64,000 bases of DNA, taken from NCBI GenBank assembly GCA_900556485.1, contig USOX01000001.1, positions 248,001-312,000 of the forward strand, in the 5' to 3' direction. Under the pieces are notes generated by a model that saw only the letters and a list, made by a program, of their open reading frames with translations, was not told the DNA's origin and ran no database searches. This DNA comes from an uncultured Dysgonomonas sp. Its GTDB lineage: Bacteria > Bacteroidota > Bacteroidia > Bacteroidales > Dysgonomonadaceae. How positions within the stretch are numbered: position 1 is the first letter of the stretch; each line of letters starts with the position of its first letter. Positions 8,938-51,796 of the stretch are shown in pieces. The position numbers and the translations under genes were made by a program.

Positions 8938-8940
8938 TTA
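8938..8940. repeat. Left target-site duplication (TTA) of MITE copy 1
   Basis: TTA directly before the terminal inverted repeat starting at 8941, matched by TTA at 9134-9136 on the other side. Confidence 0.5.
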
Positions 8941-9133
8941 GAGTCTGTTTAAATTTTATAGCAAAACTTTTTTATGGCTATTTTTAGATGGATTTTATTA
9001 TTTTTCTCTAGCAGGTTTAGCAGGCTAAACCAAGAGGAAAAAGGGTAAAATACGCTAAAAAGAGCAGAAAAAGTTGCTAAGAATAATAACTGGAGCCTAT
9101 AAGAAAAATTTTCGCTAAAATTTAAACAGGCTC
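8941..9133 (+). mobile_element. MITE-like element, copy 1 (193 bp)
   Basis: Non-coding element with terminal inverted repeats GAGTCTGTTTAAATTTTA (left) and, read from the right end, GAGCCTGTTTAAATTTTA. It is flanked by TTA on both sides. Shared internal blocks, for example the stretch around GGCTATTTTTAGATGG and ACGCTAAAAAGAGCA, recur in inverted orientation at 47648-47859. The right end can fold as a hairpin: 9093-9098 GAGCCT with 9128-9133 AGGCTC, enclosing 9106-9112/9117-9123 around CGCT. A 3-bp TNA-type duplication recalls the IS1031 branch of the IS5 family, which is only an inference. No transposase is present. Confidence 0.75.
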
Positions 9134-10366
9134 TTAGATAGAAATCTTTTTCAATCGGCTTACAGCCTCTTTCGTATTTTCAAGAGTTCCAAAAGCTGTC
9201 AGCCTCAGGTATCCTTCTCCACTTGGACCGAAGCCAACACCCGGAGTACCTACAATATTAAGTTCGTTAAGCAAATAATCGAAAAAGCCCCATGAGGTTA
9301 ATCCGTTTGGAGTTTTAACCCATATATACGGAGAATTTACTCCTCCATAAACTTGTAGCCCTTGTTCGGTTAATGCTTCTCTTATAATTTTTGCATTATT
9401 CAGGTAATAATCGATAGTAGCTTTTACCTGTTTCTTACCTTCTGTAGAGTAGCATGCTTCTGCTGCTCGTTGTATAATATAAGGCACACCATTAAATTTA
9501 GTAGTATGGCGTCTGTTCCACAGTTTATTTAATGCTACCTTCTCTCCCGATTTTGTATAACCCATTAATGCTTTAGGCACAACTGTATATGCGCAACGGG
9601 TTCCGGTAAATCCGGCTGTTTTAGAGAAGCTTCTAAACTCAATGGCGATTTCTTTAGCTCCTTCTATTTCGTATATACTGTGTGGTACATCATCCTCAGT
9701 AATGAATGCTTCGTAAGCACTATCGAATAAAATCAATACCTTGTTTTGTAATGCGTAATCAACCCAAACTTTCAATTGTTCCCTTGTGAGAGTTGTTCCG
9801 GTAGGGTTATTAGGATAACATAGGTAAACAATGTCTACTTTTTCTGTAGGTAGCGATGGTACAAAGTTGTTCTCTGCGGTACAAGGTATATATACCAACT
9901 TGCTCCATTTGCCGTTGGCCAACAAATCTCCAGCTCTACCCGCCATTGCATTTGTGTCTACATATACAGGGTATACAGGGTCTGTTATGGCAACAATATT
10001 GTCAATACCTAATATATCGCCGATGTTTCCTGTGTCACTTTTCGATCCGTCACTAACAAATATCTCATCTGCACTAATATCTAATCCCAGTGCTTTATAG
10101 TCATTTTCTACAATTGTATTTACCAGAAAGTCATAACCTTGCTCCGGGCCATATCCTCTGAAAGTAGAGGTATCTGCCATTTCATCCACAGCCTTATGTA
10201 ATGCGTCTATTACAGCGGATGGAAGTGGTTTGGTAACATCTCCAATACCAAGGCGTATTACATTTGCTTCAGGGTGTGTCGTTTTAAATTCAGTTACTTT
10301 TTTAGCTATATCCGAAAATAAATAGCTTCCGGGTAGTTTTATATAATTTTCATTTATAAATGCCAT
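9134..10366 (-). CDS. dapL: LL-diaminopimelate aminotransferase
   Basis: DapL converts tetrahydrodipicolinate directly to LL-diaminopimelate with glutamate as amino donor, for lysine and peptidoglycan. The 410 residues from [17 protein letters not shown] match the family length. An in-frame upstream extension to 10444 reads [12 protein letters not shown] and contains the TGACAAAAGTGACAC repeat, so I reject it. Class I aminotransferase features are present: the [10 protein letters not shown] start region, [21 protein letters not shown], and the PLP lysine in [21 protein letters not shown]. The stop codon coincides with the target duplication of MITE copy 1. dapF lies upstream on the same strand. 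Confidence 0.95.
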
Positions 10367-10406
10367 ATTCTTATTTTTGATATTTCTTTTCTTTAATTCA
10401 AATTCG

Positions 10407-10427
10407 AAAAAGTGACAAAAGTGACAC
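10407..10427. repeat. TGTCAC-type tandem motif, copy 1
   Basis: AAAAAGTGACAAAAGTGACA plus C, that is GTGACA twice at a 10-base spacing. The same signature recurs at 10492-10518, 38617-38639 and, weaker, 44324-44350 and 55119-55142, always outside genes. Confidence 0.5.
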
Positions 10428-10491
10428 GTATTAGCTGTTAGCATTTAGCTTATGGCTATTAGCCAACTTGTATCTCGTTACTTATATTTCC

Positions 10492-46445: not shown

Positions 46446-47588
46446 TTAGCTCATACGATTTTTATAATCTTCATAGCTGAACTCTCTATATATTTCTAAT
46501 TCATTGTTCTTGTTCCATAAAGCGATAGCCGGGTGCGATATGCCATTGAACATTGTTGTTTTTACAATAGTATAGTGTATCATATCTTCAAAGATAATTT
46601 TATCGCCTACCAATAATGGTTCATCAAACGACCATTCACCAATAAAGTCTCCACTCAAGCAACTATTACCTCCCATGCGGTAAGTAGGACGTTCTTGCAC
46701 TGGTTCGTGATATGCGCCTCTGATTCGTGGCTTATATGGCATTTCAAGACAGTCGGGCATATGACAAGCAAATGATACATCTAAAATGGCTGTCTTAATA
46801 CCTCCATTATCAACAATATCCACAACCGTAGAAACTAGGACACCTGTTTCCCATGCAAAAGCGCTTCCGGGTTCCAATATTAATTCCAAGTTAGGATATT
46901 TGGCTTTGAAGGATTTAAGAAGTTTGATCAGATGCTCTATATCGTAATCTTTGCGCGTCATAAGATGGCCTCCACCCATATTTAGCCATTTGACTTTAGG
47001 TAAGAAGTGGCCAAATCTTTGTTCTACATGCTCCAGTGTCTTCTCCAAATCGTAGGAGGTAGACTCACAAAGAGTATGAAAGTGTATCCCTTCTACACCT
47101 TCGGGTAACTCATCTCCAAAATGCTCTGCTGTAATACCTAAACGCGAACCGGGTGCTGCCGGATTATAGAGATCAGTTTCTACAACTGAAAATTCGGGGT
47201 TAACACGGATTCCGCATGATATCTTCCTGTCAGATTTCAATGTTTCGGGATAGAAACGTTCGAATTGAGATAGGGAGTTAAAAGTTATATGGCTACTATA
47301 CTTCATGAAGATGGGAAAATTCTCATGTGTATATGCCGGAGAGAAAGTATGTGCCGGACTACCCATTTCTTCATATGCTAATTGAGCCTCATATATAGAG
47401 CTGGCTGTAGAGTGAGGAATATACTCTCTGATTATAGGAAATGATTTCCACATGGCAAATGCTTTGAACGCCAATATAATATTTACTCCCGCTCTATCTT
47501 TTACCGATTTAATAAGAGAAAGGTTTTCTCTTAATAATTCTTCTTCCATAACAAAGCATGGAGAAGGAACTTTATGTATTTCAATCAT
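46446..47588 (-). CDS. nspC: Carboxynorspermidine/carboxyspermidine decarboxylase
   Basis: Makes spermidine (or norspermidine) by PLP-dependent decarboxylation of the carboxy derivative. 380 residues, alanine-racemase-like fold. MIEIHKVPSPCFVMEEELLREN opens the fold; the PLP lysine is in INIILAFKAFAMW. Others are HTLCESTSYDLEKTL, WLNMGGGHLMT (phosphate binding), LEPGSAFAWETGVLVSTVVDI, and CLSGDFIGEWSFDEPL near the C-terminus. The start at 47588 is used because the upstream extension (MFRQFLINVKIP) is unconserved. The -7 box is at 47636-47643 with the MITE copy directly beyond it. Confidence 0.93.
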   Translation of the reverse strand: MIEIHKVPSPCFVMEEELLRENLSLIKSVKDRAGVNIILAFKAFAMWKSFPIIREYIPHSTASSIYEAQLAYEEMGSPAHTFSPAYTHENFPIFMKYSSHITFNSLSQFERFYPETLKSDRKISCGIRVNPEFSVVETDLYNPAAPGSRLGITAEHFGDELPEGVEGIHFHTLCESTSYDLEKTLEHVEQRFGHFLPKVKWLNMGGGHLMTRKDYDIEHLIKLLKSFKAKYPNLELILEPGSAFAWETGVLVSTVVDIVDNGGIKTAILDVSFACHMPDCLEMPYKPRIRGAYHEPVQERPTYRMGGNSCLSGDFIGEWSFDEPLLVGDKIIFEDMIHYTIVKTTMFNGISHPAIALWNKNNELEIYREFSYEDYKNRMS

Positions 47589-47635
47589 TGGAATTTTTAC
47601 ATTAATAAGAAACTGTCTAAACATCTACGAGCAGA

Positions 47636-47644: not shown

Positions 47645-47862
47645 TAAGTAACTGTTTAAATTTTAGCGAAAATTTCTATTACAGTTACTTAAAATAGTTC
47701 TTAGCCATCTTTTTTTGCTCTTTTTAGCGTCTTTTCGCCTTTTTCCTTTTGATTTAGCCCACTAATTAGCTCCGCTGACCGTTGGTTCTTCAAGTAAAAA
47801 TACAAAAATCCATCTAAAAATAGCTACAAAAAGATTGACTATAAAATTTGAACAATTACTAA
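47645..47862. repeat. Target-site duplications (TAA) of MITE copy 2
   Basis: TAA at 47645-47647 and 47860-47862 directly flank the inverted repeats. Confidence 0.45.
47648..47859 (-). mobile_element. MITE-like element, copy 2 (212 bp)
   Basis: Reverse orientation relative to copy 1. Terminal repeats GTAACTGTTTAAATTTTAGC and, from the other side, GTAATTGTTCAAATTTTATAG. It shares the internal blocks with copy 1 (for example ATTTTTAGATGGATTTT and ACGCTAAAAAGAGCA on the minus strand). The left end folds: GTAACTGT (47648-47655) with ACAGTTAC (47681-47688) around AAATTTT-AGCG-AAAATTT. No gene inside. The 433-base nspC to GT-C spacer contains nothing else I recognise except the promoter boxes. Confidence 0.75.
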
Positions 47863-48021: not shown

Positions 48022-49527
48022 ATGATAATAAAGAAAATACAAGAAGATAAGAAGACATTTGTTGCACTCTTCATATATGCTTTTCTGCTCATATTCTTTT
48101 GCTCTAAAATGTCTCCTTTATATCCGTTCAATGAATGGTCGGATGTCAATTTGTATTTTAATATCGGGAAAGCTATTGCTCATGGAAAAGTTCCTTATAC
48201 AGAAGTGTTTGACCATAAAGGTCCACTGATCTTTTTTATCTATAGTGTTGGATATCTTATATCCAATACCAGCTTCTTTGGAATGTATATCATTGAATCA
48301 CTTTTCTGGACAATTATGATATTTGCTGGCTACCTTACAGCTCGGTTATATTTGGAGAAAATACGTGCTTTCATTATTGCTTTGCTCTTTCCTGTGGTAA
48401 CACTGTCTTTTATTTTGGAAGGAGGTTCTGCTGAAGAGTTTATACTTGTTTTTCAATTTGTTAGTTTATATTTTTTCGTAAGGCATTTTAATAATAAAGA
48501 TTCTGTTCTTCACAATCCTGTTTATATGTTTGTGCATGGTGCAATGTGCGCTATGACACTGCTGATAAAAATGAACCTGATTGTTTTTTGGTTCTTTCCT
48601 CTGTTAGCTATATTTGTTCCTCTGCTTATAAAGAAAGAGTATCGTAATTTGATACAAAACGCCATTATGTATCTCGCGGCTATTGTTCTTGTAATACTGC
48701 CAATGTGTATTTACTTTCTGGCAAATAATGCATTGCAAGAGGCATGGAATATATATGTTACACTTAACAGAAATTATATGATAATAGATGGACCGAAGGA
48801 CACCATCTATACTTTACTCACCCGTTTCTTCCACTTTGCAAGATATAATACATTCGATTTTTTTATTGTAATGCTAGGTGCTATTTATTTCCCTATTAAG
48901 TATATTGGAAACAATTGGGGCAAAGTTTCTATTATATTATCATTTTTCTCACTATTTATTATCATTCATATTTCGCCTATATTTTTCTTATATTATCCTA
49001 TACCTTATTATGTATATACTGTTTTGGGCTGCATTGCTATTTGCAGCTATTTGAGAGTGTCTTCTACAAAATTGGCATATGCTTTGACCTTTATTATAAT
49101 TCTGATAACAGGTATAAAAAAACAAGATTTTTTTGGTATTAAAATAAATGCTCTGGTAAATAGAGAGATACCTGAAAAATCCCTTGTCTTTCAGTTTAGT
49201 AAGCATATAGAAAAGGAGAAAGACCCTACATTACTTAATCTGGGATTAGATACAGGAAATGGGGTTTTTACAAAAACAGGAATATTACCTAGCTTTAAAT
49301 ACTTTATTTCTCCAAACTTGTCTCATGCTATTTATCCGGATATGCGGGATGAGCAAACCCGGTACATAGAGAACAAAGAACCTCAATTAATTATCTTAAC
49401 AGACTTCAGTTTTAATATCGATTATTTTAAAGACCTTCCGGCACTTGTTGATAACTATACAGTAATTGATTACTTTTACGAAGAAAATACGAATAAGAAA
49501 TATTACTTGTATAAGAGAAATGAATAA
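48022..49527 (+). CDS. GT-C-like polytopic glycosyltransferase, paralogue 1
   Basis: 501 residues with about ten hydrophobic segments. SPLYPFNEWSDVNLYFNIGKAIAHG and VPYTEVFDHKGPLIFFIYSVGY form the N-terminal periplasmic loop of integral-membrane (GT-C fold, PMT/ArnT-like) transferases that use polyprenyl-phosphate sugars; Asp residues in WSDVN and VFDHKGP are candidate catalytic or metal sites. The soluble C-terminal ~80 residues (YFKDLPALVDNYTVIDYFYEENTNKKYYLYKRNE) are conserved with the paralogue. Overlaps the methyltransferase gene by 8 bases. Confidence 0.75.
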   Translation: MIIKKIQEDKKTFVALFIYAFLLIFFCSKMSPLYPFNEWSDVNLYFNIGKAIAHGKVPYTEVFDHKGPLIFFIYSVGYLISNTSFFGMYIIESLFWTIMIFAGYLTARLYLEKIRAFIIALLFPVVTLSFILEGGSAEEFILVFQFVSLYFFVRHFNNKDSVLHNPVYMFVHGAMCAMTLLIKMNLIVFWFFPLLAIFVPLLIKKEYRNLIQNAIMYLAAIVLVILPMCIYFLANNALQEAWNIYVTLNRNYMIIDGPKDTIYTLLTRFFHFARYNTFDFFIVMLGAIYFPIKYIGNNWGKVSIILSFFSLFIIIHISPIFFLYYPIPYYVYTVLGCIAICSYLRVSSTKLAYALTFIIILITGIKKQDFFGIKINALVNREIPEKSLVFQFSKHIEKEKDPTLLNLGLDTGNGVFTKTGILPSFKYFISPNLSHAIYPDMRDEQTRYIENKEPQLIILTDFSFNIDYFKDLPALVDNYTVIDYFYEENTNKKYYLYKRNE

Positions 49528-50284: not shown

Positions 50285-51796
50285 TTATCTGATATTATCC
50301 TTCTTTTTATATAGATAATAGGTTTTGAACCCATCCTCTAAATAAGAGTCTATTATCGAATAGTTCTCATTTAAAGCAGGAAGATTGTGGAAATACTGAA
50401 AATTATTGGAATATTCTGCCAGAATAATAAATTGAGGTTCTTTGTTCTCTATGTACCGGGTTTGCTCATCCCGCATTTCAGGGTAAGCTTCATGTTTAAT
50501 ATTGGGAGATATAAAATATTTGAATGTCGGATTTACATTTGCCCTCGTAAAAATTCCGTTACCAGAATCAAGTCCCAGATTAAGTAATGTAGGGCTTTTC
50601 TCCTTTTTTACGTGCTTGCTAAATTGATAACTGACTGTATTTATCTCTTTGCCTTTCACTAAATCAGCTATCTGATATTCAAAAAAGTCTTTTTGTTTGA
50701 TTCCCCATACTAGAATAAGCAACGTTAAAGCTGCATACGAAATGCGAGTAGAAGGTATAACTTTTAAACACTTGCAAATTATAATACAAGCCGGAAGTGC
50801 ATAAACATAATATGGTATAGAATAGTAAAATACATAATTAGTTGGTACAAATATGAGAAGATAAAGAGAAATGAATGACAAAGGTATGGCTATTTGTCCC
50901 CATTTATTAGATAAATATTTGAAAGGGAAATAAAATGCTCCGACCAATATTGCTAAAAACTCAAATGTTTCGAAACGGAGACGTAAATAAAAACGAACAA
51001 TCAATAGTTCGATTACTTCTATAAATGTTCCAACACTAGCATAGCTCTTATTCAATATAATATAGATATTCCAGGCTTCACCAAAAGCATTGTTAATCAA
51101 GAAATATATGCAGATAGGAAGAGCTATTATCAATACTCCAATTGTAAAGGCTATAATATTATGTATTAAATTCTTATATTCTTTATTTATGAGCAGAGGT
51201 ACTAATATAGCTAACAGAGGAAAGAACCAGAAAATGACCAGATTGATTTTTATAAATAAAGTCATTGCACACAGAAGCCCATGTACAAGCATATAGGCAG
51301 GCTTATGAGTAGTAATCTCTTTGTTTTTAAAATAGAGGATAAACAAATAGAGACTAATAGTTTCAAATATAACAATAAATTCTTCTGCAGAACCTCCCTG
51401 AGATGTGTGAGATTGTATAATGACAGGGAATGCTAAAGCTACCAGATAGGCATGTCCTTTTTTTAGATAAAGTTTTGCTGTCAGATAGGCGGTAAATATC
51501 ATTAACACCCAAAAAAGTGATTCGATGATATACATCCCCAGAAAACTGGCATTGGATATAAGGTATCCAAGACTATAAATAAAGAAAATCAAAGGCCCTT
51601 TATGATCAAAAGCTTCTGTATAAGGAACTTTTCCATGGGCAATAGCTTTTCCGATATTGAAGTATAGATTTACATCCGACCATTCATTGAATGGGTATAG
51701 TGGGGACATTTTGGAACAAAAGAATATGAGCAGAAAGGCATATATGAAGAGTGCAATAAATATATTCTTATCTTCAAGAAGCGTTTTTTTTATCAT
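50285..51796 (-). CDS. GT-C-like polytopic glycosyltransferase, paralogue 2
   Basis: 503 residues, nearly identical in its N-terminal third to the gene at 48022 (FIALFIYAFLLIFFCSKMSP, EWSDVNLYFNIGKAIAHGKV, TEAFDHKGPLIFFIYSLGY) and conserved at the C-terminus (YPEMRDEQTRYIENKEPQ, LYKKKD), but the middle transmembrane part has drifted. It is in inverted orientation around the methyltransferase. -7 box TATTTTTG lies 26 bases upstream of the ATG. Either two transferases of different specificity, or one copy decaying, though both are intact. Confidence 0.75.
   Translation of the reverse strand: MIKKTLLEDKNIFIALFIYAFLLIFFCSKMSPLYPFNEWSDVNLYFNIGKAIAHGKVPYTEAFDHKGPLIFFIYSLGYLISNASFLGMYIIESLFWVLMIFTAYLTAKLYLKKGHAYLVALAFPVIIQSHTSQGGSAEEFIVIFETISLYLFILYFKNKEITTHKPAYMLVHGLLCAMTLFIKINLVIFWFFPLLAILVPLLINKEYKNLIHNIIAFTIGVLIIALPICIYFLINNAFGEAWNIYIILNKSYASVGTFIEVIELLIVRFYLRLRFETFEFLAILVGAFYFPFKYLSNKWGQIAIPLSFISLYLLIFVPTNYVFYYSIPYYVYALPACIIICKCLKVIPSTRISYAALTLLILVWGIKQKDFFEYQIADLVKGKEINTVSYQFSKHVKKEKSPTLLNLGLDSGNGIFTRANVNPTFKYFISPNIKHEAYPEMRDEQTRYIENKEPQFIILAEYSNNFQYFHNLPALNENYSIIDSYLEDGFKTYYLYKKKDNIR

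Follow-up and report, generated by a model that had tools for sequence, protein, structure and literature searches.

IS5-type MITEs of Dysgonomonas with a record of tip switching and a probable template switch in one hairpin arm

The window analysed here, a 64,000-nucleotide stretch of DNA from an uncultured Dysgonomonas sp., contains two diverged copies of one short element, and these are ordinary IS5-type MITEs with a record of tip switching. Both copies are non-autonomous, and their ends (a 5-nt tip followed by TGTTTAAATTT) and 3-bp T(A/T)A flanks match those of the IS5 family (NCBIfam IS5_3 type). A preliminary description had taken the agreement between left tip, right tip and internal arm in each copy for a three-way covariation that pointed to tip-specific recognition and to selection on a hairpin. 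The agreement between the three sites is real and non-trivial, but the wider data give no support to a generally co-varying recognition hairpin. The explanation favoured here, with a probability of about 60%, is that these IS5-type MITEs swap tips and that the arm of the second copy was rewritten by a template switch.

Two MITE copies in the window

Copy 1 spans 193 bp on the minus strand (8941..9133). Read on that strand, it consists of the left tip GAGCC at the hairpin end (at 9133), the internal arm ATAGGCTC (9093..9100), which pairs with this tip in folding, and the right tip GAGTC (at 8941). Copy 2, on the plus strand (47648..47859, 212 bp), has the tip GTAAC at its hairpin end (47648), the arm ACAGTTAC and the right tip GTAAT (47859). 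Exact 3-bp repeats flank both copies: TTA on the far side of copy 1 (8938..8940) and at 9134..9136, and TAA on both sides of copy 2, the right-hand repeat lying at 47860..47862. Placed in one orientation, the copies have most of their length in common. The preliminary description was correct in its coordinates and in calling them related elements with different tips, each with an internal arm that matches its own left tip. Both share a hairpin end laid out as tip, TGTTTAAATTTTAGCGAAAATTT, spacer and arm, followed by a centre with TTTAGCC..CTAA and a second end (tip, TGTTYAAATTTTATAG).

An extra central stretch in copy 2 contains a 23-nt module, TTAGCTCCGCTGACCGTTGGTTC (47766..47788, plus strand), which is not in copy 1 and is found in the closest relatives of copy 2. 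The collected loci hold 30 matches to this module with at most two mismatches (overlapping loci counted twice), of which three, judged by a simple test of context, are not in the usual MITE centre, and near-identical stretches occur in loci L189 and L199; the module may be a small repeat in its own right. Open reading frames of at least 100 aa are absent from both copies. A known structured RNA was rejected as the identity of the elements, as no Rfam family matched at the gathering threshold anywhere in the window.

Copy 1 adjoins the coding part of dapL (9134-10444), and the stop codon of this gene, TAA on the minus strand, coincides with the flanking repeat at 9134..9136. Copy 2 lies between nspC (46446-47624, minus strand) and a PMT_2 glycosyltransferase-like gene at 48022. 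The latter is one of a pair (48022-49527 and 50285-51796) on opposite strands, whose proteins of about 500 aa each match over the same residues, 66-226.

Distribution and mobility

Many copies of these elements are spread over several genomes. The exact 21-nt core of the hairpin end occurs in 113 stretches of the genome contigs (genome_contigs), and among the 80 core matches listed all come from Dysgonomonas or from two MAGs labelled Prevotella (G007 and G008), which are listed in the genus of Dysgonomonas sp. 521. A BLAST search with copy 2 (E<=1e-5) gave a match in 12 of 25 genomes of the genus. GTAAY ends were found in four of eight genomes, with 79 in genome G001 and none in a reversed control. 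Such relatives occur often in Dysgonomonas genomes, and GAGYC, GTAAY and GAAAY tips are found there side by side; G018 carries numerous elements of both the GAGYC and the GTAAC type.

As expected of MITEs, the elements are short, non-coding, multicopy and bounded by inverted ends. The collected loci yielded 196 elements of 60 bp up to 450 bp with paired ends and T.A flanks, and 162 of these 196 have identical flanks, as in a target site duplication, given that T.A was required. Where each side carries either TAA or TTA (182 elements), the two triplets are equal in 155 cases, against a chance expectation of about half, as T.A had been required. In a set of 201 elements, 29 are flanked by TAA/TTA or TTA/TAA without an exact duplication, which could reflect recombination between copies or a mismatched central base.

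The genes dapL, glutamine synthetase III and nspC of the window are 72-84% identical in DNA to genes of the genus, and because of this the source of the window looks like a separate species. Copy 1 reaches 91% identity to MITE copies in G001 and G007; identity above that of the genes fits recent spread, although constraint on the element may contribute. The dapL junction is free of an element in 21 of 22 genomes (23 loci, G024 contributing two). In the remaining genome, G008, there is at the 3ʹ end of dapL (L368) an independent, GAAAC-tipped element in the opposite orientation, one base from the copy 1 site, and the first base of this element completes a TAG stop codon of dapL. Upstream of nspC, 22 of 24 loci are without an element end (up to one mismatch, up to 260 bases scanned), and G018 and G008 carry elements of other tip classes there.

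Searches of mobile DNA gave no exact core in viral contigs and no match for copy 2 in plasmids; four weak partial matches of copy 1 in phages (E 0.2-0.6) were not accepted as relatives. A literature search found no description of such MITEs for Dysgonomonas.

IS5-family insertion sequences with the same ends

The preliminary description had suggested a search for a transposase with matching tips, and two IS5-family insertion sequences with such ends, both broken, were found in the genus. The first (L326, 939-1813) measures 875 bp, has GAGCC at both ends and TTA/TTA flanks, and its frames are broken. Its transposase piece scores 130.7 bits against NF033580 (IS5 family; cut-off 110) and also matches the Pfam families DUF4096 and DDE_Tnp_1. 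The second (L325, 1340-2256) measures 917 bp, has GTAAC at both ends, one in-frame stop and flanks that are not identical (TTA/TAA); its two transposase pieces score 79.3 and 77.3 bits against NF033580, each alone below the cut-off of 110, and one of them matches DDE_Tnp_1. These insertion sequences (NF033580 IS5_3; PF13340, PF01609) share with the window MITEs the terminal repeats, GAGCC or GTAAC plus TGTTTAAATTT, and the T(A/T)A flanks; unlike them, the window elements are about 200 bp long and have no transposase. Because the genus contains IS5 insertion sequences of both kinds, GAGCC-ended and GTAAC-ended, tip-specific recognition appears plausible. In such a scheme the transposase would read the tip, and GAGYC and GTAAC would belong to different but related IS5 transposases.

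Identity between the two insertion sequences is about 50%, and a GAGTC-ended remnant in G018 (L329) matches L326 at 80% identity over 55 residues. A second GTAAC-ended insertion sequence (L323, in G017) is 53% identical to L325, versus 52% for GAAAC-ended ones; because L323 is barely nearer to L325 than the GAAAC-ended ones are, the relation of tip class to transposase sequence is not simply one to one. Across the order, relatives of the L326 transposase were found in 15 of 393 genomes (19 matches), and nine of these loci show paired ends, with tips such as GAGGT, GAGGC, GAAAC and GAAGC.

Both L326 and L325 are broken and reside in genomes (G016 and G012) that have no match to copy 2, and the flanks of L325 are unequal; for these reasons the donor transposase can only be put forward as a candidate. 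An intact insertion sequence with these ends was not seen in the MITE-rich genomes G001, G002, G008 and G018. Of the Pfam searches, that with PF13340 in 25 genomes yielded L325 and L326, and that with PF13359 in 25 genomes gave one useful match, weak and below the cut-off, inside the GAGCC insertion sequence L326 (L317). Transposases matching PF13586 (six genomes) and PF01609 (seven genomes) were rejected, as end scans found no such ends nearby; a scannable locus was available for 6/6 PF13586 and 30/32 PF01609 matches. In G005 (L290), two ends enclose a 1.3-kb stretch that, on reading, was taken for a host gene next to a minimal palindrome and discarded.

Tip classes and mixed elements

Tips fall into discrete classes, and the two ends of one element usually agree: the same class is present at both ends in 157 of 196 elements, 10 are mixed and 29 have an end without a class. 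Elements with agreeing ends would be those that move. Thus far the preliminary description stands, both in its tip classes and in the plausibility of tip-specific recognition, whereas its further claim that the arm follows the tip does not hold in general. It had itself named mixed tips within one element as evidence against its reading, and such elements exist, including the nearest relative of copy 2 (L144, also recorded as L069 4175-4388), in which a GAGCC left tip and the arm GGTTC are combined with a GAAAC right tip.

Identical flanks surround seven of the ten mixed elements (L061, L066, L068, L074, L086, L121 and L297), the remaining three being L069, L127 and L148; some of the ten may be chance pairings of neighbouring ends, and L068 (344 bp) may be two adjacent elements rather than one. 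Three mixed elements combine a left GTAAC tip with a body of the same kind and an arm that belongs to another type: L148 has GTAAC at the left, the arm GGTTC and GAGTC at the right, and L121 and L127 have GTAAC at the left, an arm of the GGAT or GGGAT type and GAAAC at the right. In all three the tip has changed and the arm is unmatched. L029, which lies outside the hairpin-end count, likewise has a GTAAC tip, a GGTTC arm, a GAGTC right tip and the flank GAA. Such a pattern would result from an occasional tip swap by way of the shared TGTTTAAATTT core.

The idea that GTAAC elements generally carry a GTTAC arm was rejected: in six complete GTAAC elements from loci of G001 and G002 the bodies differ and a GTTAC arm is lacking, and the TAAC motif in the arm region of G011, G018 and G023 is direct rather than inverted. 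At the position of the inverted arm of GAGYC elements, the GTAAC-tipped hairpin ends of L160 (1643-1692), L172 (1501-1550) and L170 (1501-1550) contain a direct TAACTRTTT or a similar sequence. Minimal palindromes of 38-41 bp that consist of two facing terminal repeats were also seen (L291, L290 1592-1632, L308 and L047 1697-1734), most of them with T.A flanks; these are possibly the smallest mobile form.

Pairing of arm and tip

If left tip, right tip and arm co-varied through selection on an end hairpin within a tip-specific transposition system, the arm should follow the tip from copy to copy. Pairing was counted in 185 hairpin ends (188 found, three minimal palindromes dropped) with at most two core mismatches and T.A flanks, a filter that drops L029; the underlying set is not random, having been drawn from an exact hairpin-core pattern, a GTAAY pattern and the copy 2 BLAST search (at most 32 candidates per genome), with further loci from regions hand-chosen from those lists and from transposase and flank searches, and its copies are related by descent. 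Full pairing over the five bases, G.T allowed, was found in 103 of 117 GAGYC ends, 0 of 32 GAAAY ends, 1 of 22 GTAAY ends and 3 of 14 others, and the sole paired GTAAY end is copy 2. As a cross control, the tip GTAAC was set against the arm regions of the other classes and paired over its full length in 1/117 GAGYC, 0/32 GAAAY and 0/14 other ends. These counts per tip class already contradict the three-way covariation of the preliminary description as a general rule. Because elements without full pairing are numerous, pairing is not needed for spread. A hairpin pattern like that of copy 2, which finds copy 2 in the window, matched in 0 of 101 genomes of the family.

Selection on the hairpin nevertheless has observations on its side. 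The pairing arm of GAGYC ends is retained in at least seven genomes, and copy 2 pairs at all five positions. In an alignment (A2) of 30 rows, hand-picked from 99 representatives and with three bases added upstream, 83.1% of the structure cells are paired versus 79.7% in shuffles (0/500 shuffles reach this value), and the covariation score is reached by 7/500 shuffles. Against this, doubly changed pairs are no commoner than in shuffles (245/500 reach the observed number), and with the partner shifted by +2 or -1 there are 12 or 10 cells with a double change, versus 8 for the named structure. Across the 17 GAGYC rows of A2, conservation of the arm columns is mostly 0.76-1.00, with one at 0.47, and that of the next nine columns is 0.41-0.82; better-conserved arm columns would likewise fit selection on the hairpin. 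Folded as single-stranded DNA, the left end of copy 2 forms a hairpin better than all 200 shuffles (z -4.6), and that of copy 1 a weaker one (z -2.0; 9/200 shuffles as good). With the absence of full pairing in all 32 GAAAY and 21 of 22 GTAAY ends, and with the copy 2 match reaching into host DNA as described below, selection-driven covariation is an unlikely account of the data. In the template-switch explanation, the GAGYC arm would be an old inverted copy of the tip, by now degenerate, that was preserved through descent, recurrent correction of the template-switch sort or weak selection.

Origin of the copy 2 arm

The closest relatives of copy 2 are about 86% identical to it and have the arm GGTTC. 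Compared with them, copy 2 differs in both tips and in the arm, and the 23 nt that follow the left tip are unchanged. The three compensated pairs of the preliminary description hold between copies 1 and 2, but against these relatives only two pairs have changed on both sides, the third having gone from G.T to A-T through the tip change alone. The changes are concentrated in about 10 nt that coincide exactly with the arm and are sparse to its left and right; they amount to a block in which GGTTC and the following bases became GTTACTTA.

Together with an unchanged ACA, this block forms an 11-bp perfect inverted repeat. Its outer arm TAAGTAACTGT (47645..47655, plus strand) comprises the 3-bp target flank, the tip and TGT, and its inner arm ACAGTTACTTA (47681..47691, plus strand) is the reverse complement of the outer one. 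The first three bases of TAAGTAACTGT are thus target flank, outside the element. Among 185 ends this repeat is the longest, the next being 9 bp. The match extends three or more bases into the flank in 3 of 107 arm-paired elements, copy 2 included, and a 3-bp flank match could be luck in AT-rich DNA. Selection on the hairpin of the element itself would not explain the copy 2 match, because the match runs into the target flank.

One alternative is coincidence, in which two point substitutions turned GGTTC into GTTAC. Two substitutions do suffice for this, one match among 22 GTAAY ends is not extremely rare, and the cross control found one GAGYC arm region that happens to pair with GTAAC. When arm mutation of the relatives was simulated from one consensus arm with independent substitutions, GTTAC arose near the arm in 0.6-1.7% of elements and ACAGTTAC in 0.1-0.3% of arms, whereas GTTACTTA arose in 0.0005-0.03%. 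Given a match of 11 bp rather than 5 and changes that are clustered, coincidence is improbable; pure chance is unlikely for copy 2, although this is a single case picked after the fact.

A further alternative takes the left 41 bp of copy 2 for a minimal element nested in it (GTAAC...GTTAC, flanked by its own TAA and TTA), the arm being a former terminal repeat. Palindromes of two facing ends of this size exist (L291, L308, L047, L290), and a GTAAC...GCTAC palindrome of similar kind, likewise with the AGCG loop, is present in L069. The inner arm part TATTACAG, however, matches GAGYC relatives and not a terminal repeat, and TAA/TTA flanks would be no identical duplication, which makes nesting very unlikely.

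One template switch that copied flank and tip into the arm explains copy 2 better than pair-by-pair selection. Copy 2 would be a GAGYC-type body that gained GTAAC-class tips. Its inner arm would then have been rewritten in a single event, by polymerase fold-back at the quasi-palindromic end during replication, with the flank TAA and the tip GTAAC copied into the arm as GTTACTTA. Quasipalindrome template switching is known to bring imperfect inverted repeats closer to perfection (PMC7202029) and can produce multibase compensatory changes (PMC8794818); it predicts a block change like that of copy 2. The likeness to this process (PMC7202029, PMC8794818) lies in the multi-base change that perfects an inverted repeat, whereas the switch at copy 2 is deduced from one element and was not observed as a mutation.

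Relation to known elements and significance

Close parallels are the IS5-type MITEs of Porphyromonas gingivalis. As the relevant passages of PMC4596501 describe them, BrickBuilt and MITEPgRS/MITE464 have terminal repeats that equal those of full IS5-family elements in the same genome or deviate from them by at most one nucleotide. The Dysgonomonas elements resemble them in their IS5-family ends, and MITEPgRS begins with GAGACTGTTGCA (PMC4596501). BrickBuilt, in the same passages, has 23-nt tandem repeats and target duplications of varying length; unlike it, the Dysgonomonas MITEs have 3-bp flanks, no such tandem repeat seen in the two copies, and several tip classes on related bodies (PMC4596501). 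MITECca01 of Cardinium, in the portion of PMC9769881 that deals with it, is likewise a MITE, about 240 bp long with ends like those of its parental insertion sequence, but it derives from IS982, not IS5.

A tentative extension, which we regard as doubtful, is that these MITEs may change transposase allegiance. A shared body would repeatedly swap its 5-nt tips among co-resident IS5 specificities (GAGYC, GTAAC and GAAAC), and the fold-back hairpin at one end would allow template switching to write a new tip into the inner arm, so that elements would carry a spare copy of the tip in readiness.

Because one template switch can yield several compensated pairs, copy 2 serves as a caution that compensated changes in a hairpin need not imply selection on RNA or DNA structure. 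If tip swapping lets bacterial MITEs outlive their own transposase, the Dysgonomonas families would be natural experiments in this process: one genome can contain related bodies that differ in their tips, mixed elements occur as intermediates, and there are insertion sequences whose ends match.
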